IMG/VR virus record: IMGVR_UViG_3300027467_000500
Location: 1-30,502 of that record
Strand: one strand, 5' to 3'
DNA from: a virus
DNA: 30,502 nt
In this document: one piece after another, positions 3,961 to 13,851 of the stretch
Position numbering within the stretch: position 1 is the first letter of the stretch
Layout of the letters: each line of letters begins with the position of its first letter
The notes under the pieces: generated by a model
Told to the model about the DNA's origin: nothing
Databases searched by the model: none
The model's input: only the letters and a program-made list of their open reading frames with translations
Program-made: the position numbers and the translations under genes

Positions 3961-4803
3961 ATGGCCTCCAACACCCAAGACACGCTGGCAGGACTGCGTA
4001 AATGGAGGCTGGAACAAGACAATTCAGGCCCCTTCCGGGTCTACCGAGACATTAACGGTAATATCTACCATAGTGTTACACACATCCTAAAGGAAACAAG
4101 CGACAAAACCGGATTGGAACGCTGGGAAGCTCGCCTGGGACCCGTTGAGGCAAGTTGCCAGCGGAATGTTGCAGCAACCCGAGGCAACATGGCCCACGGT
4201 CAAGCGGAATACCTATTGAAAACGGCAATGCAGCTGGCACGATCCACTGCAAACAAGCGCAACTCCATCCGCTGGGACGAACAGGGATTGGCACGCATCC
4301 CGGCCCCCATCACGCAATGGGCATTGAAGAGGGTCCGGCCAAATGTTCCAAGGGTTGGCTGGAGCGCATCAGGCTACGCCCGAGGCTTATCCGACTGGAT
4401 CGCCGAGAACGTCACCGAAATTTTTGCCAGCGAATTTTCCATTCACCACCCCGCCGGCTTCGCCGGCACTTGTGACGCATTGGTGGGAATGAAGAATAAC
4501 GAGCTGGTACTAGCGGACTGGAAAACCAGCGTGGGCCGCAAAACCAAGCTCGACGATGAAGGACTGGAACGCCTCCCGCCGGGCCATTCCTATATCGATC
4601 AGTGCGGTGCCTACAGCCTCGGCCTCACCCACCTCACCGGCCTCAAACCAACTGGAGCAGCCATCGTATTGGCACGCCGCTGCGGCAACCCCAACATTCA
4701 CACGATGACTAGGGCAGAACTAGACGACGCTGAAAAGTCATTCATGGCCAGGGTGGAGCTTTACTTCGACCAGCTGCAAAACGCCATTCATGTCTCGGCC
4801 TAA
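3961..4803 (+). CDS. PD-(D/E)XK exonuclease (MGME1/RecB-like)
   Basis: A 280-residue nuclease of the Cas4/RecB/MGME1-like group, expected to process DNA ends in replication or recombination. The N-terminal part has HSVTHIL (37-43) and the helix with TRGNMAHGQAEYL (73-85), giving the H79/E83 pair common in this group. The catalytic core has the acidic SEF (E158), GFAGTCDALVG with D172, and LADWKTS with D186 and K188. YIDQCGAYSLG (Q214, Y218) matches the RecB motif that follows the active site. Start ATG at 3961; the upstream sequence is A-rich with no strong ribosome site. It belongs with the SSB gene in the rightward replication group. A direct repeat used several times downstream (GCCATTCAT) first occurs inside its last codons. 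Confidence 0.82.
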   Translation: MASNTQDTLAGLRKWRLEQDNSGPFRVYRDINGNIYHSVTHILKETSDKTGLERWEARLGPVEASCQRNVAATRGNMAHGQAEYLLKTAMQLARSTANKRNSIRWDEQGLARIPAPITQWALKRVRPNVPRVGWSASGYARGLSDWIAENVTEIFASEFSIHHPAGFAGTCDALVGMKNNELVLADWKTSVGRKTKLDDEGLERLPPGHSYIDQCGAYSLGLTHLTGLKPTGAAIVLARRCGNPNIHTMTRAELDDAEKSFMARVELYFDQLQNAIHVSA

Positions 4804-4860
4804 CGGCCTCGACGAAAAGCCATTCATAACTGCCATTCATGTATTGTTTCGGCCATTCAT
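4783..4860 (+). repeat. Four direct copies of GCCATTCAT
   Basis: Exact 9-base copies start at 4783, 4819, 4832 and 4852, the first within the end of the exonuclease gene and three in the non-coding stretch after it. A related CATTCATGGCC lies near 4740. Such clustered direct repeats resemble iterons or binding sites. No protein partner is known here, and chance duplication is possible. Confidence 0.5.
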
Positions 4861-4915
4861 AGCCTCAATACCTGGTACGTATTGGTACTTTTGCCGATAC
4901 CTGTAGGCGCCCGAT
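4861..4915. other. Non-coding stretch with short GGTAC/ATACC repeats
   Basis: Part of the 268-base gap between the rightward exonuclease gene and the leftward gene ending at 5072. GGTAC appears twice, with AATACC and GATACC nearby giving weak inverted symmetry. No open frame with a ribosome site is visible. It connects the GCCATTCAT repeats to the hairpin modules and may be part of one regulatory or origin region. Confidence 0.3.
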
Positions 4916-4997
4916 CCTCCCACGGTGGGAGGTCTGCTGGTGCTCAGCCCTCCGGGCTTCGCACACTGCGTCTCATGAGTCTCACTGAGAAGGGGAA

Positions 4998-5012
4998 TGA
5001 GAATCATTCTCA
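4998..5012. promoter_or_regulatory. 15-bp palindrome resembling a Fur box (copy 1)
   Basis: TGAGAATCATTCTCA is a perfect 7-1-7 inverted repeat that differs from the Fur 7-1-7 consensus (TGATAAT-N-ATTATCA) only at the symmetric positions 4 and 12. An identical copy lies at 8284-8298. It sits in non-coding DNA between the two hairpin modules. It could bind the host Fur protein or a phage repressor. Only the identity and symmetry are observed. Confidence 0.45.
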
Positions 5013-5021
5013 AGGCAAGGA

Positions 5022-5049
5022 CAGCAGAAAGGCTCCCATGGTGGGAGCC
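5022..5049 (-). terminator. Terminator for the leftward two-gene operon
   Basis: On the minus strand the stem GGCTCCCA/TGGGAGCC with a three-base loop is followed by TTTCTG, 23 bases after the stop codon of the gene ending at 5072. The T tract is short. The same hairpin is element P2 of the tandem structured modules, so termination may not be its only role. Confidence 0.5.
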
Positions 5050-5071
5050 CGTTAGGTCAACTGGAGCGTGC

Positions 5072-5494
5072 TCACCCCTGCGGGGTTCGCACTTTTCTAG
5101 AGGGCTGAGCTTTTCCCGCATCGCTCCGCTTTTTCCGGGGGGATCCGGAAGATGCTTTGACCCTCACAGCTGGAGCGGCTGGAGCTTTTTCTGGTGTGCG
5201 CGGAAAAAGTCCCGTAGCTTGTGGAAAACAATCAGCGGGAATGTCAGCCCCGCCATTGATGCGCTGGCAGTCTCGCCAGTACGGGATCAGCTCCCGGAAT
5301 AGTTGGAGCGGGCCTTCTTTACCGTGCTGTTGCTGGAGCGTTAAAAGGTCAGCCCAGTCCGAAGCCTCGATGCTGGAGCGTTCAATGGCCCATCGCAGAT
5401 CGCGTAGGTGGCGCTTCTCAAGGCGCAGCTGTTCGCGCTCAGCCTCTCGGCTCTCGCGCTGGCGTCCCTTGGTGGTCCACTCACCCCCGGTCAT
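5072..5494 (-). CDS. Hypothetical basic coiled-coil-like protein
   Basis: A 140-residue protein I cannot assign. Residues 10-40 are a highly charged helix (RQRESREAEREQLRLEKRHL). The middle (43-90) is a likely small folded domain with EASDWADLLTLQQQ, LFRELIPYWRDCQRING and GADIPADCF. The C-terminus (100-140) is Pro/Ala/Lys/Arg-rich and probably disordered. The basic tail suggests contact with nucleic acid, but no DNA-binding motif is clear. Its ATG overlaps the stop of the upstream zinc-ribbon gene (ATGA), so the two are probably translated together. Its last codons coincide with structured hairpin Q2. An overlapping frame on the other strand is Arg/Ser-rich and judged a shadow. Confidence 0.65.
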   Translation of the reverse strand: MTGGEWTTKGRQRESREAEREQLRLEKRHLRDLRWAIERSSIEASDWADLLTLQQQHGKEGPLQLFRELIPYWRDCQRINGGADIPADCFPQATGLFPRTPEKAPAAPAVRVKASSGSPRKKRSDAGKAQPSRKVRTPQG

Positions 5495-5763
5495 TCTTGG
5501 GGCTCCGCGTAGGCCGACTCGATGCGAGCACCGCAGCAGTCACAGTAGAGGGCTGGATCTTCCCAGTTAGCCTCAACCGCCACCAGACCCCAGCCGTCTG
5601 TGCCGGTTGTGGTTGCGATTGATTCGCGCTCAGCGCTGGCGCACCTATGGCAGCAGGCGCCGCCATCGTGAAAGATGCCAAACAGCGGGTAACCGCCTGG
5701 CCAAGCGTACGGGCTGGCACTGAGCTGATCAGCAAGCCGTAGGCTGCGAGATTGTGTGGTCAT
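5491..5763 (-). CDS. Small zinc-ribbon-like conserved phage/plasmid protein
   Basis: A 90-residue protein with two Cys pairs spaced like a zinc ribbon: CCHRC (C38, C41) and CDCC (C74, C77). The segment YAWPGGYPLFGIFHDGGACC resembles short proteins common on phages and plasmids whose function is unknown. The C-terminus is acidic (ESAYAEPQE). Start ATG at 5763; the stop overlaps the next ATG by four bases. A 13-base palindrome lies just upstream of the start and may be an operator for this pair. The zinc-binding role is inferred from Cys spacing only. Confidence 0.65.
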   Translation of the reverse strand: MTTQSRSLRLADQLSASPYAWPGGYPLFGIFHDGGACCHRCASAERESIATTTGTDGWGLVAVEANWEDPALYCDCCGARIESAYAEPQE

Positions 5764-5777
5764 GGTGCCCTATGGGT

Positions 5778-5790
5778 GAGGGTTACCCTC
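5778..5790. promoter_or_regulatory. Palindromic operator candidate GAGGGTTACCCTC
   Basis: A perfect 6-1-6 inverted repeat 14 bases upstream of the start of the leftward zinc-ribbon gene, in the 145-base divergent gap before the acidic 284-residue gene. Related half-sites (AGGGTA and TACCCT, separated by 13 bases) occur at about 8394-8418 before the large terminase gene. It may control the leftward operon. Confidence 0.35.
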
Positions 5791-5908
5791 TAACACTACC
5801 ACCAAGGGCAAGCGGCGCCGACCGTTTGAAGAAGTGTAACAGTAGGGAGGGTTATGGCTGGCGCTGGAGCGATGATGGGGGCTGAACACCTAGGGAGACA
5901 ATCCCACC

Positions 5909-6763
5909 ATGGCAACCACACCCAAGGCCAGCCCCGCTCTGCTGGAGCGTATTGATCGTCTCGCCGGATGCTCCGGCCACTGGCTGCTAATTCGAGATGG
6001 CGAACCCGAGCGCGATGGTTTCGGCTCTTGGCACCAAAGCCCGGAGCGCCATCTCGAAACCTGCCTAGCCGAGCACTGGCGCGACGTGTCTCTCGGTTTC
6101 GTGCCCACCTATTGCGGCTGGAGCGATTACGCGAGCACCGGCCTTGTGGGTAAGGCTAATTACAACGTGCTCATCGATCCCTCCAGCACGCCGGACCCGC
6201 TCGGTGGAATCCTCACCGTTGGTTACGGCTGGAACGGTTCCGGCGTTGTGCTCGATCTGTTGCGGGTTTCTGCTGACGTGCTGGAGACTGTTGAAGCGCT
6301 GGAGTCCTACCCGCTGATCAGTGAAGACGAGCACTCCAGCTTGGAGCTGGAGGAGATTGAACGGGCTTGGCAAGACTCCTACGCGTCAGACTGGCGCGAT
6401 CTCGTGCGAGATCAGCTGGCCGCATACTGCCCAACCGACGTGCTGGAGCGTAACGCTTACGGCCCGAGCACCGCTAAGTTCTGGGCTGATGACCAGCTGG
6501 ACTCACTGTTTGAAGACAAGCTGGAACGGGAACTGCAGGAACTGTTCCAGCTTTGCCTGGAGTGGAGCGGTGAAGGTTGGGTAGTGGAGGATCTCAGTAG
6601 CGGCGCGTATCTCAAGCTTGAGAAGGTTGCACGCGGAATCGACCGCTCAGACCTAGTGGCGCTCACTGGCTTGGCACTGCTGCCAGCGGATCATGAGTGG
6701 CGCCGGGAGTCCTACCCCTGGCCGGATGGTTCCGGCGGTGCTCTGGCTCCCGCGCTTGCCTAG
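5909..6763 (+). CDS. Acidic hypothetical protein, candidate DNA-mimic/anti-defence
   Basis: A 284-residue protein of unknown family. By direct count it has 50 Asp/Glu and 22 Lys/Arg, a net charge of about -28. Acidic helices lie at 141-151 (DEHSSLELEEI) and 205-240 (DQLDSLFEDKLERELQELF). The N-terminal half has SGHWLLIRDGEPERDGFGSW and a Gly-rich beta-like part (GGILTVGYGWNGSGVVLDLL). The ribosome site AGGGAG lies 11 bases before the ATG. It is followed after 53 bases by an equally acidic ArdA-like gene. Shared charge and neighbourhood suggest a DNA-mimic or anti-restriction role, but this is inference; no catalytic motif is visible. Confidence 0.7.
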   Translation: MATTPKASPALLERIDRLAGCSGHWLLIRDGEPERDGFGSWHQSPERHLETCLAEHWRDVSLGFVPTYCGWSDYASTGLVGKANYNVLIDPSSTPDPLGGILTVGYGWNGSGVVLDLLRVSADVLETVEALESYPLISEDEHSSLELEEIERAWQDSYASDWRDLVRDQLAAYCPTDVLERNAYGPSTAKFWADDQLDSLFEDKLERELQELFQLCLEWSGEGWVVEDLSSGAYLKLEKVARGIDRSDLVALTGLALLPADHEWRRESYPWPDGSGGALAPALA

Positions 6764-6816
6764 TGGCGCGATCTGCTGTAATGTATTTCACGAGACCCAA
6801 CCCATAGGCTCACACG

Positions 6817-7470
6817 ATGACTCGCTACACCACCGAACAGCTGGCGTCCTTCCCCTGGATCGTCAGCACTGACACGTTGCGCACCGATCACTTGGCGGAT
6901 GCCTACCTTGGCGCTTTTGACCGCTTGGAGCAAGACATACCGGAACCGTTCCGCTCAGATCTGCAGCAATGCGCCGCTTACGCTTCGGACCTTACCGGCC
7001 CGGAACCGTGCGACGCCTGGGATGAGGCTACTGCCTGGGCTTTCGACCGCCTGAAAGATCTGGCGCCGACTGGTTTCTACTTTGGCGCGTCCGAAGGCGA
7101 TGGCTCTTGTTTCGGATTCTGGTTGCAGGAAGAATGGGCAGAGTGCCTGGAGCATTGCGGCTTTGCTGCAGACTCTGACCCTGCGGCTTTGGTGCCGATC
7201 ATCTCTGAGCTGTGCAGTTCTGGCGTTGATCCCGATACCTACCAAGACTGCTACCAAGGCGAGGCAGAAGGCTACACCTCAGAACAGGCCGGGGCAGATT
7301 ACGCTCAGCAGTTGGCCGATGAGTTAGGACTGCCCCCCAAGCTTGACGGCGCCAGCTGGCCAATGAGTTGTATTGACTGGCAGGCTGCTTGGCGCGAACT
7401 AGAGCTTGGCGATGCCTACTGGTTACAGCGTATTAACGGGAGCCAATGGGCAGTATTCCGGCCTTGCTAA
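6817..7470 (+). CDS. ArdA-like antirestriction protein
   Basis: A 217-residue acidic protein (39 Asp/Glu against 10 Lys/Arg, net about -29). The C-terminal 70 residues have the ArdA-type order: YQGEAEGYTSEQAGADYAQQ, LADELGLP, then CIDWQAAWRELELGDAYW and WAVFRP, matching the family pattern of an Asp-aromatic-x-Ala core, a short G-D-Y motif and a terminal V-F-R. ArdA proteins mimic B-form DNA and block type I restriction enzymes. The N-terminal half (GFYFGASEGDGSCFGFWLQ) is less typical, and the classical YNNG-type N-terminal motif is absent, so it may be a divergent relative. A -10-like TGTAAT lies about 40 bases upstream, and a strong terminator follows the stop. Confidence 0.55.
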   Translation: MTRYTTEQLASFPWIVSTDTLRTDHLADAYLGAFDRLEQDIPEPFRSDLQQCAAYASDLTGPEPCDAWDEATAWAFDRLKDLAPTGFYFGASEGDGSCFGFWLQEEWAECLEHCGFAADSDPAALVPIISELCSSGVDPDTYQDCYQGEAEGYTSEQAGADYAQQLADELGLPPKLDGASWPMSCIDWQAAWRELELGDAYWLQRINGSQWAVFRPC

Positions 7471-7492
7471 CTGGCGTTCTTACCGATCAACG

Positions 7493-7518
7493 GCCCGGCC
7501 AGTAGGTCGGGCTTTTTT
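7493..7518 (+). terminator. Rho-independent terminator after the ArdA-like gene
   Basis: Stem GCCCGGCC/GGTCGGGC (one G.T pair), loop AGTA, followed by six T. It begins 22 bases after the stop of the acidic gene pair and separates them from the packaging genes. Confidence 0.85.
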
Positions 7519-8274: not shown

Positions 8275-8305
8275 CCCCGGGACTGAGAATCATTCTCACC
8301 CGGGG
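8275..8305. promoter_or_regulatory. Hairpin enclosing the second Fur-box-like palindrome
   Basis: CCCCGGG (8275-8281) and CCCGGGG (8299-8305) flank TGAGAATCATTCTCA (8284-8298), giving a nested inverted repeat of 14 pairs with a two-base bulge. The inner 15 bases are identical to 4998-5012. No T tract follows, so it is not an ordinary terminator. The location, 25 bases after the tiny lipoprotein gene and 135 bases before terL, suits an operator or a packaging-related site. Confidence 0.5.
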
Positions 8306-13826: not shown

Positions 13827-13851
13827 GGGCTCCTTACGGGAGCCCTTTTTT
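13827..13851 (+). terminator. Rho-independent terminator after the capsid gene
   Basis: Stem GGGCTCC/GGAGCCC with loop TTACG and six T. The next gene's ATG begins one base after the T tract. The 3' arm contains the GGGAG that would be the only ribosome site for that gene. Confidence 0.9.

Follow-up and report, generated by a model that had tools for sequence, protein, structure and literature searches.

A likely leftward terminator, a thinly covarying hairpin pair and an array of strand-polar words at a convergent-gene locus of an uncultured cyanophage

The Chi sequence of E. coli is GCTGGTGG. The Fur box of Xanthomonas has the consensus AATGAgAATcATTctCATT, a 7-1-7 palindrome (PMC1790865), and a precedent for the avoidance of Type III restriction sites is provided by T7 and EcoP15 (PMC3874151). 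The locus considered here lies in a 30.5-kb IMG/VR virus fragment, the whole of which we refer to as the window. By protein similarity the fragment is a cyanophage: the best match of its terminase is Cyanophage S-2L (42%), which is also the nearest named isolate for its capsid (42%), followed by Synechococcus and Prochlorococcus phages, and its tail protein matches only Synechococcus and Microcystis phages. A search of 17 relatives of the window for a homologue of PurZ, the mark of S-2L-type base modification, found none, and a tRNA scan also returned nothing. One related genome, G003, carries a 101-bp direct terminal repeat, which suggests that a complete genome in this group measures about 45.6 kb.

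The original prediction, made from the window itself, described two tandem non-coding modules near 5 kb, each consisting of a P and a Q hairpin and selected for structure, and proposed that they act as a phage small RNA, a bidirectional terminator pair or an origin element. The hairpins sit between convergent genes, a rightward exonuclease gene and a small leftward gene, and a DNA similarity search of the hairpin locus against isolated phages found no match. The features discussed below are as follows.

3961-4803, plus strand: exonuclease gene of the PD-(D/E)XK type, left of the hairpins
4784-4860, plus strand: four CCATTCAT direct repeats, at 4784, 4820, 4833 and 4853, right after the exonuclease stop
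4866-4884: CAATAC-N7-GTATTG palindrome, upstream of P1, with 92.9% of cells paired in the nearest clade
4916-4932: P1 hairpin, palindromic, 7 bp, CCTCCCA-CGG-TGGGAGG, sharing the core of P2
4940-4964: Q1 hairpin, GTGC-TC-AGCCC-TCC-GGGCT-TC-GCAC
4975-5055, plus strand: possible 26-aa ORF, MSLTEKGNENHSQGKDSRKAPMVGAR; its N-terminal part is seen again in the nearest clade, its C-terminal frame is not kept
4998-5012: TGAGAATCATTCTCA, a 7-1-7 palindrome resembling a Fur box, located between P1-Q1 and P2-Q2, with a second copy at 8284-8298
5026-5030, minus strand: U-run of the putative P2 terminator, TTTCT here and TTTTTT (many), TTTTT or TTTTCT in relatives
5031-5049, minus strand: P2 hairpin, GGCTCCCA-TGG-TGGGAGCC, one pair longer than P1
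5068-5092, minus strand: Q2 hairpin, GTGC-TC-ACCCC-TGC-GGGGT-TC-GCAC
5072-5494, minus strand: small gene, 140 aa, with a Lys/Arg-rich C-terminus
13827-13851, plus strand: textbook terminator after the capsid gene, GGGCTCC-TTACG-GGAGCCC-TTTTTT, with a stem of the type found in the P2 slot

Relatives were gathered as about 145 loci through homologues of the exonuclease and of the leftward gene, with 10 more, partly on the same contigs, through the Q pattern; the intergenic comparison set comprises 92 distinct stretches. The leftward gene 5072-5494 has no match in Pfam or PHROG, and its homologues at 65 viral loci mark it as a real, conserved gene. Upstream of it, the gene 5491-5763 (minus strand) matches PHROG 18452, labelled DNA ligase, a label that looks doubtful for a product of only 90 aa. 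In four relatives (L020, L038, L085 and L132) an HNH/AP2-type endonuclease-like frame has, judged by eye, apparently been inserted in the hairpin intergenic region.

All four predicted hairpins are present. Identity between the two Q copies is 88%, their differences including one paired double change; the P copies agree at 14 of 15 core bases, and the folding z-scores of the single hairpins range from -2.4 to -3.9. Folding favours the minus strand for the Q hairpin (-14.4 kcal/mol, versus -12.3 kcal/mol on the plus strand), where it has a tandem GA/GA internal loop and where its GGA and GCA loops are GNA triloops. It is very improbable that all four arose as palindromes by chance or mutation in a GC-rich genome, with the double change between Q1 and Q2 a coincidence. 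Such an origin would fit the window as a whole, in which perfect hairpins with stems of 7 bp or longer outnumber those in shuffles only about twofold (12 versus 6.3); within the 297-nt stretch, however, such hairpins stand at two positions, and only 4 of 1000 dinucleotide shuffles contain two or more. Locally the four hairpins exceed chance, and the complementarity of the Q pair in all 38 copies and the turnover of the P2 stem in relatives, both described below, also weigh against a chance origin, which is disfavoured for P2 and may stand for P1.

P2 is likely an intrinsic terminator of leftward transcription, a conclusion we draw from its anatomy, its recurrence in relatives, the turnover of its stem, the strand on which its wobbles pair and the persistence of its slot. 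It is a GC-rich stem-loop with a stem of 8-9 bp and a folding energy of -15.7 kcal/mol on the minus strand, and it lies 22 nt past the stop of 5072-5494, that is, just downstream of a gene on the same strand. A leftward hairpin with a U-run is found in the intergenic region of 54 of the 92 distinct relatives, most but not all of them exactly in the P2 slot, as against 9.8 in dinucleotide shuffles; for rightward hairpins with a U-run the corresponding numbers are 18 and 9.3. The stems that occupy the P2 slot are wholly different among relatives (GGCTCCC/GGGAGCC, AAGCTCCC/GGGAGCTT, GGCTCTC/GAGAGCC, CCCGGCTACCT/AGGTAGCCGGG, CCCGGTTA/TAACCGGG and GCACCAGG/CTGGTGC) and stand at one place, after the leftward stop codon. 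The slot persists even where the adjacent leftward gene has been exchanged for another leftward ORF (L016-L019, L024, L025, L050 and L078).

In one anchored group (alignment A4), 96.6% of cells pair in the leftward sense, compared with 83.9% when the opposite strand of these loci is read, and this difference consists of G-U wobbles whose pairing is confined to leftward RNA; changes on both sides are seen in one pair only. In the nearest clade (alignment A3), the P2 stem shows compensatory changes from GC to AU in L025 and from CG to UA in L038, with a covariation score not clearly above column shuffles (71/500). Stem turnover together with A4 makes the stronger case that the P2 stem is kept by compensatory change, and A3 by itself a weak one. 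The U-run of the window, TTTCT, is short and weak; P2 escaped a stricter terminator scan there, apparently through pairing of the first U into the stem. The U-run lies on the leftward side only, the plus strand continuing CGTTAGG, and of the proposed bidirectional terminator pair it is therefore a leftward terminator, with a structure that appears to be under selection, that survives.

Taken together, the locus probably marks where two convergent operons, one leftward and one rightward, meet with their 3' ends, with P2 and its U-run as a Rho-independent terminator of the leftward one. RNA polymerase moving leftward through the genes 5491-5763 and 5072-5494, the operon that P2 would serve, would read through the stop codon within Q2, after which the P2 stem-loop would form and the polymerase would be released at the U-run. 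The hairpins would lie within a putative cis-acting locus, rich in strand-polar repeats and operator-like palindromes that serve a purpose of their own.

Q2 cannot be called non-coding, as it covers the last codons of the conserved leftward gene together with its stop codon (TGA, 5072-5074), and the stretch is therefore not wholly non-coding. The compensatory pair that had set the two Q copies apart is real: in the 38 copies it takes the form C-G or G-C, with a single G-U and no mispaired copy, and both states recur. Few events lie behind the change, probably one to three independent switches between C-G and G-C as estimated without a tree, and because the copies are related and the switches few, the covariation is thin. 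A further argument for Q2, from strand asymmetry, was dropped, as it involves a single wobble type and too few events. On the minus strand Q2 continues GCTCCAG, with no U-run, and on the plus strand it is followed by TTTTCT, a T-run missing in most relatives that have Q2. Placed over the stop codon, Q2 could perhaps shield the 3' end of the mRNA and, in the few loci where TTTTCT follows, might help to stop rightward transcripts. No Q copies were found beyond the hairpin slot in 1.05 Mb of relatives. Among approximately 85,000 bacterial and archaeal genomes there is one exact match, which immediately follows a terminator-like hairpin in an Oscillospiraceae MAG; it shares only the 25-nt hairpin and was judged to be chance, and the idea of Q as a host or mobile repeat was rejected.

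The left copy behaves differently from the selected module that had been proposed, in that the stems of P1 and Q1 are not maintained in relatives by paired changes; unpaired stem substitutions, which the original prediction had named as evidence against itself, are found in Q1 and to some extent in P1. In alignment A5, P1 is represented by 6 distinct stems, which show 4 broken pairs and no compensatory change, a count that sets aside L025, where P1 was aligned with unrelated sequence that was the source of the only P1 double change. Q1 is represented by 8 distinct stems, in which 15 of 72 pairs are broken on the plus strand and 26 on the minus strand. Both hairpins are confined to the nearest clade and absent or replaced in many relatives, Q1 is degenerate in several members of that clade, and P1 has a U-run on neither side in the window. 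Because P1 is without compensatory change and the Q1 stem is lost in several relatives, structural selection is unsupported for this copy. Similarity and clade distribution suggest that P1/Q1 is most likely a partial duplicate, in the nearest clade, of the Q-P end module, in which the P copy would be without a U-run and the Q copy would be decaying; the P-Q spacers of the two modules are not alignable, and a duplication origin is what we infer.

A different account, which we consider unlikely, would place P1-Q1, and perhaps P2-Q2, in a short rightward RNA, either a leader that starts from a TTGGCA-N18-AATACT/CAATAC element before a tiny ORF beginning MSL, or a regulatory small RNA of roughly 190 nt with its end at Q2-TTTTCT. 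The promoter-like element and the order of the hairpins are conserved in the nearest clade, an ORF beginning MSL follows in many relatives, and substitutions in Q1 give more wobbles on the plus strand (13 versus 2). Additionally, three leader helices have 88.2% of cells paired versus at most 44% when slid, although this value overstates the case because its reference structure comes from one of the members and the misaligned L025 was included. The A5 counts (0 compensatory changes in P1, 15 broken pairs of 72 in Q1) and the lack of P1/Q1 outside the nearest clade speak against such an RNA, and the P1+Q1 leader as a whole (4900-5000, plus strand) folds no better than shuffles (z -0.34). A possible promoter, TTGG(C/T)A-N18-(A/G)ATAC(T/C), overlaps the CAATAC palindrome and is at most suggestive; a sigma-70 consensus scan gave 0 matches. 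In an Rfam covariance-model search at gathering score the hairpins match no known RNA family, and the small-RNA candidate is not borne out.

In many relatives the MSL ORFs in the slot of 4975-5055 encode proteins of 40-60 aa that contain a single hydrophobic segment, such as MSLTAETVLLAPLAGILLGLAWGLLLGRL; in the clade of the window they are 23-32 aa long and hydrophilic. As a firm gene this ORF was set aside; its start and N-terminus recur but its C-terminal frame shifts between relatives.

The terminator reading of P2 leaves aside what else is present at the locus, and the polar words and the Fur-box-like palindrome are more unusual observations than the hairpins. The locus is a genome-wide peak of the strand-polar words CTGGNRC, CCATTCA and AGTCTCA. 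CTGGNRC peaks here in five of five near-complete genomes (G001, G003, G008, G013 and G014), with 26-33 forward and 0-2 reverse occurrences in 3.4 kb, compared with approximately 3 per kb forward elsewhere. The word is often followed by G, and it is polar whatever the direction of the genes (window peak 4000-7500; relatives L013-L156); within the leftward gene it occurs 373 times against a codon-shuffle null of 94 ± 9. In the intergenic regions of relatives, CTGGNNC occurs 439 times forward and 15 reverse and CCATTCA 302 times forward and once reverse, the CCATTCA array being kept on the plus strand only, and between 4.0 and 7.5 kb of the window CTGGNNCG is found 19 times forward and 0 reverse. 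These word counts are effect sizes and not P values, because the relatives are not independent and significance would be overstated. Avoidance of Type III restriction was rejected as a source of the polar words, since it explains the absent reverse sites and not the forward excess.

It is conceivable, and we hold it tentatively, that the locus is a cis-acting DNA element of replication or recombination, origin or Chi-like, with P1, the CAATAC...GTATTG palindrome and TGAGAATCATTCTCA as protein-binding sites in double- or single-stranded DNA. The CTGGNRC peak in all five near-complete genomes, the excess over the codon-shuffle null in the leftward gene and the polarity of CCATTCA (302 versus 1) are consistent with such a role, as is the proximity of exonuclease and single-strand-binding-like genes. 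Set against it are a GC skew without a clear turning point at the locus, the non-independence of the relatives, which inflates the counts, polar words here without any protein known to bind them, and the irregular spacing of the CCATTCAT repeats (36, 13 and 20 nt), which differs from that of an iteron-type origin. For the origin element that had been suggested earlier, the evidence would come from the polar repeats and not from the hairpins. Somewhat speculatively, the 4-7 kb region might be a new kind of phage cis-element, a polar CTGGNRC/CCATTCA/AGTCTCA array that extends over coding and non-coding DNA around the exonuclease, is read single-stranded (as DNA in replication or recombination, or as RNA) and has hairpins and Fur-like operators embedded in it. 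A Chi-like role or single-strand recognition for CTGGNRC is a guess.

The Fur-type sites at 4996-5012 and 8282-8298 are consensus palindromes in intergenic DNA, as expected of Fur-box operators, and both positions recur in relatives; binding is at most predicted. The second site is flanked by CCCCGGG/CCCGGGG arms and lies upstream of the terminase gene.

The original prediction is partly supported: the hairpins resolve into what would be an ordinary terminator, a pair whose covariation is real but thin, and a left module for which structural selection lacks evidence. For one base pair the compensatory change between the copies is real, but it does not extend to the module, and it is the relatives that separate the likely working terminator from its look-alike. 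Should the polar words and the Fur-type operators prove to be cis-signals, they would offer a clue to the start of replication or recombination, or to the sensing of host metal status, in an abundant uncultured cyanophage group.

Compared with known systems, P2 resembles a Rho-independent terminator in its GC-rich stem-loop and its U-run just past a stop codon, and in having stems that are freely replaced while the structure is kept; it differs in the shortness of the U-run in the window and in the look-alike P1/Q1, without a U-run, that lies beyond it. Like a bidirectional terminator, the hairpins stand between rightward and leftward genes and Q2 is followed by TTTTCT on the plus strand, but the P2 U-run is on one side only and the Q2 T-run is absent in most relatives bearing Q2. 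Cyanophage S-2L, the closest isolate by terminase and capsid (42% identical in each), has another gene order, a GC content of 69% and neither the CCATTCA array nor a polar CTGGNRC peak. CTGGNRC shares with E. coli Chi its short length, strand polarity, over-representation and CTGG core, whereas it is concentrated at one phage locus. The Fur-like site of the window differs from the known Fur box in its setting, a phage genome where it is flanked by hairpins and falls within a possible ORF; over 4996-5012 (AATGAGAATCATTCTCA) it exactly matches positions 1 to 17 of the 19-position Xanthomonas Fur box (PMC1790865).
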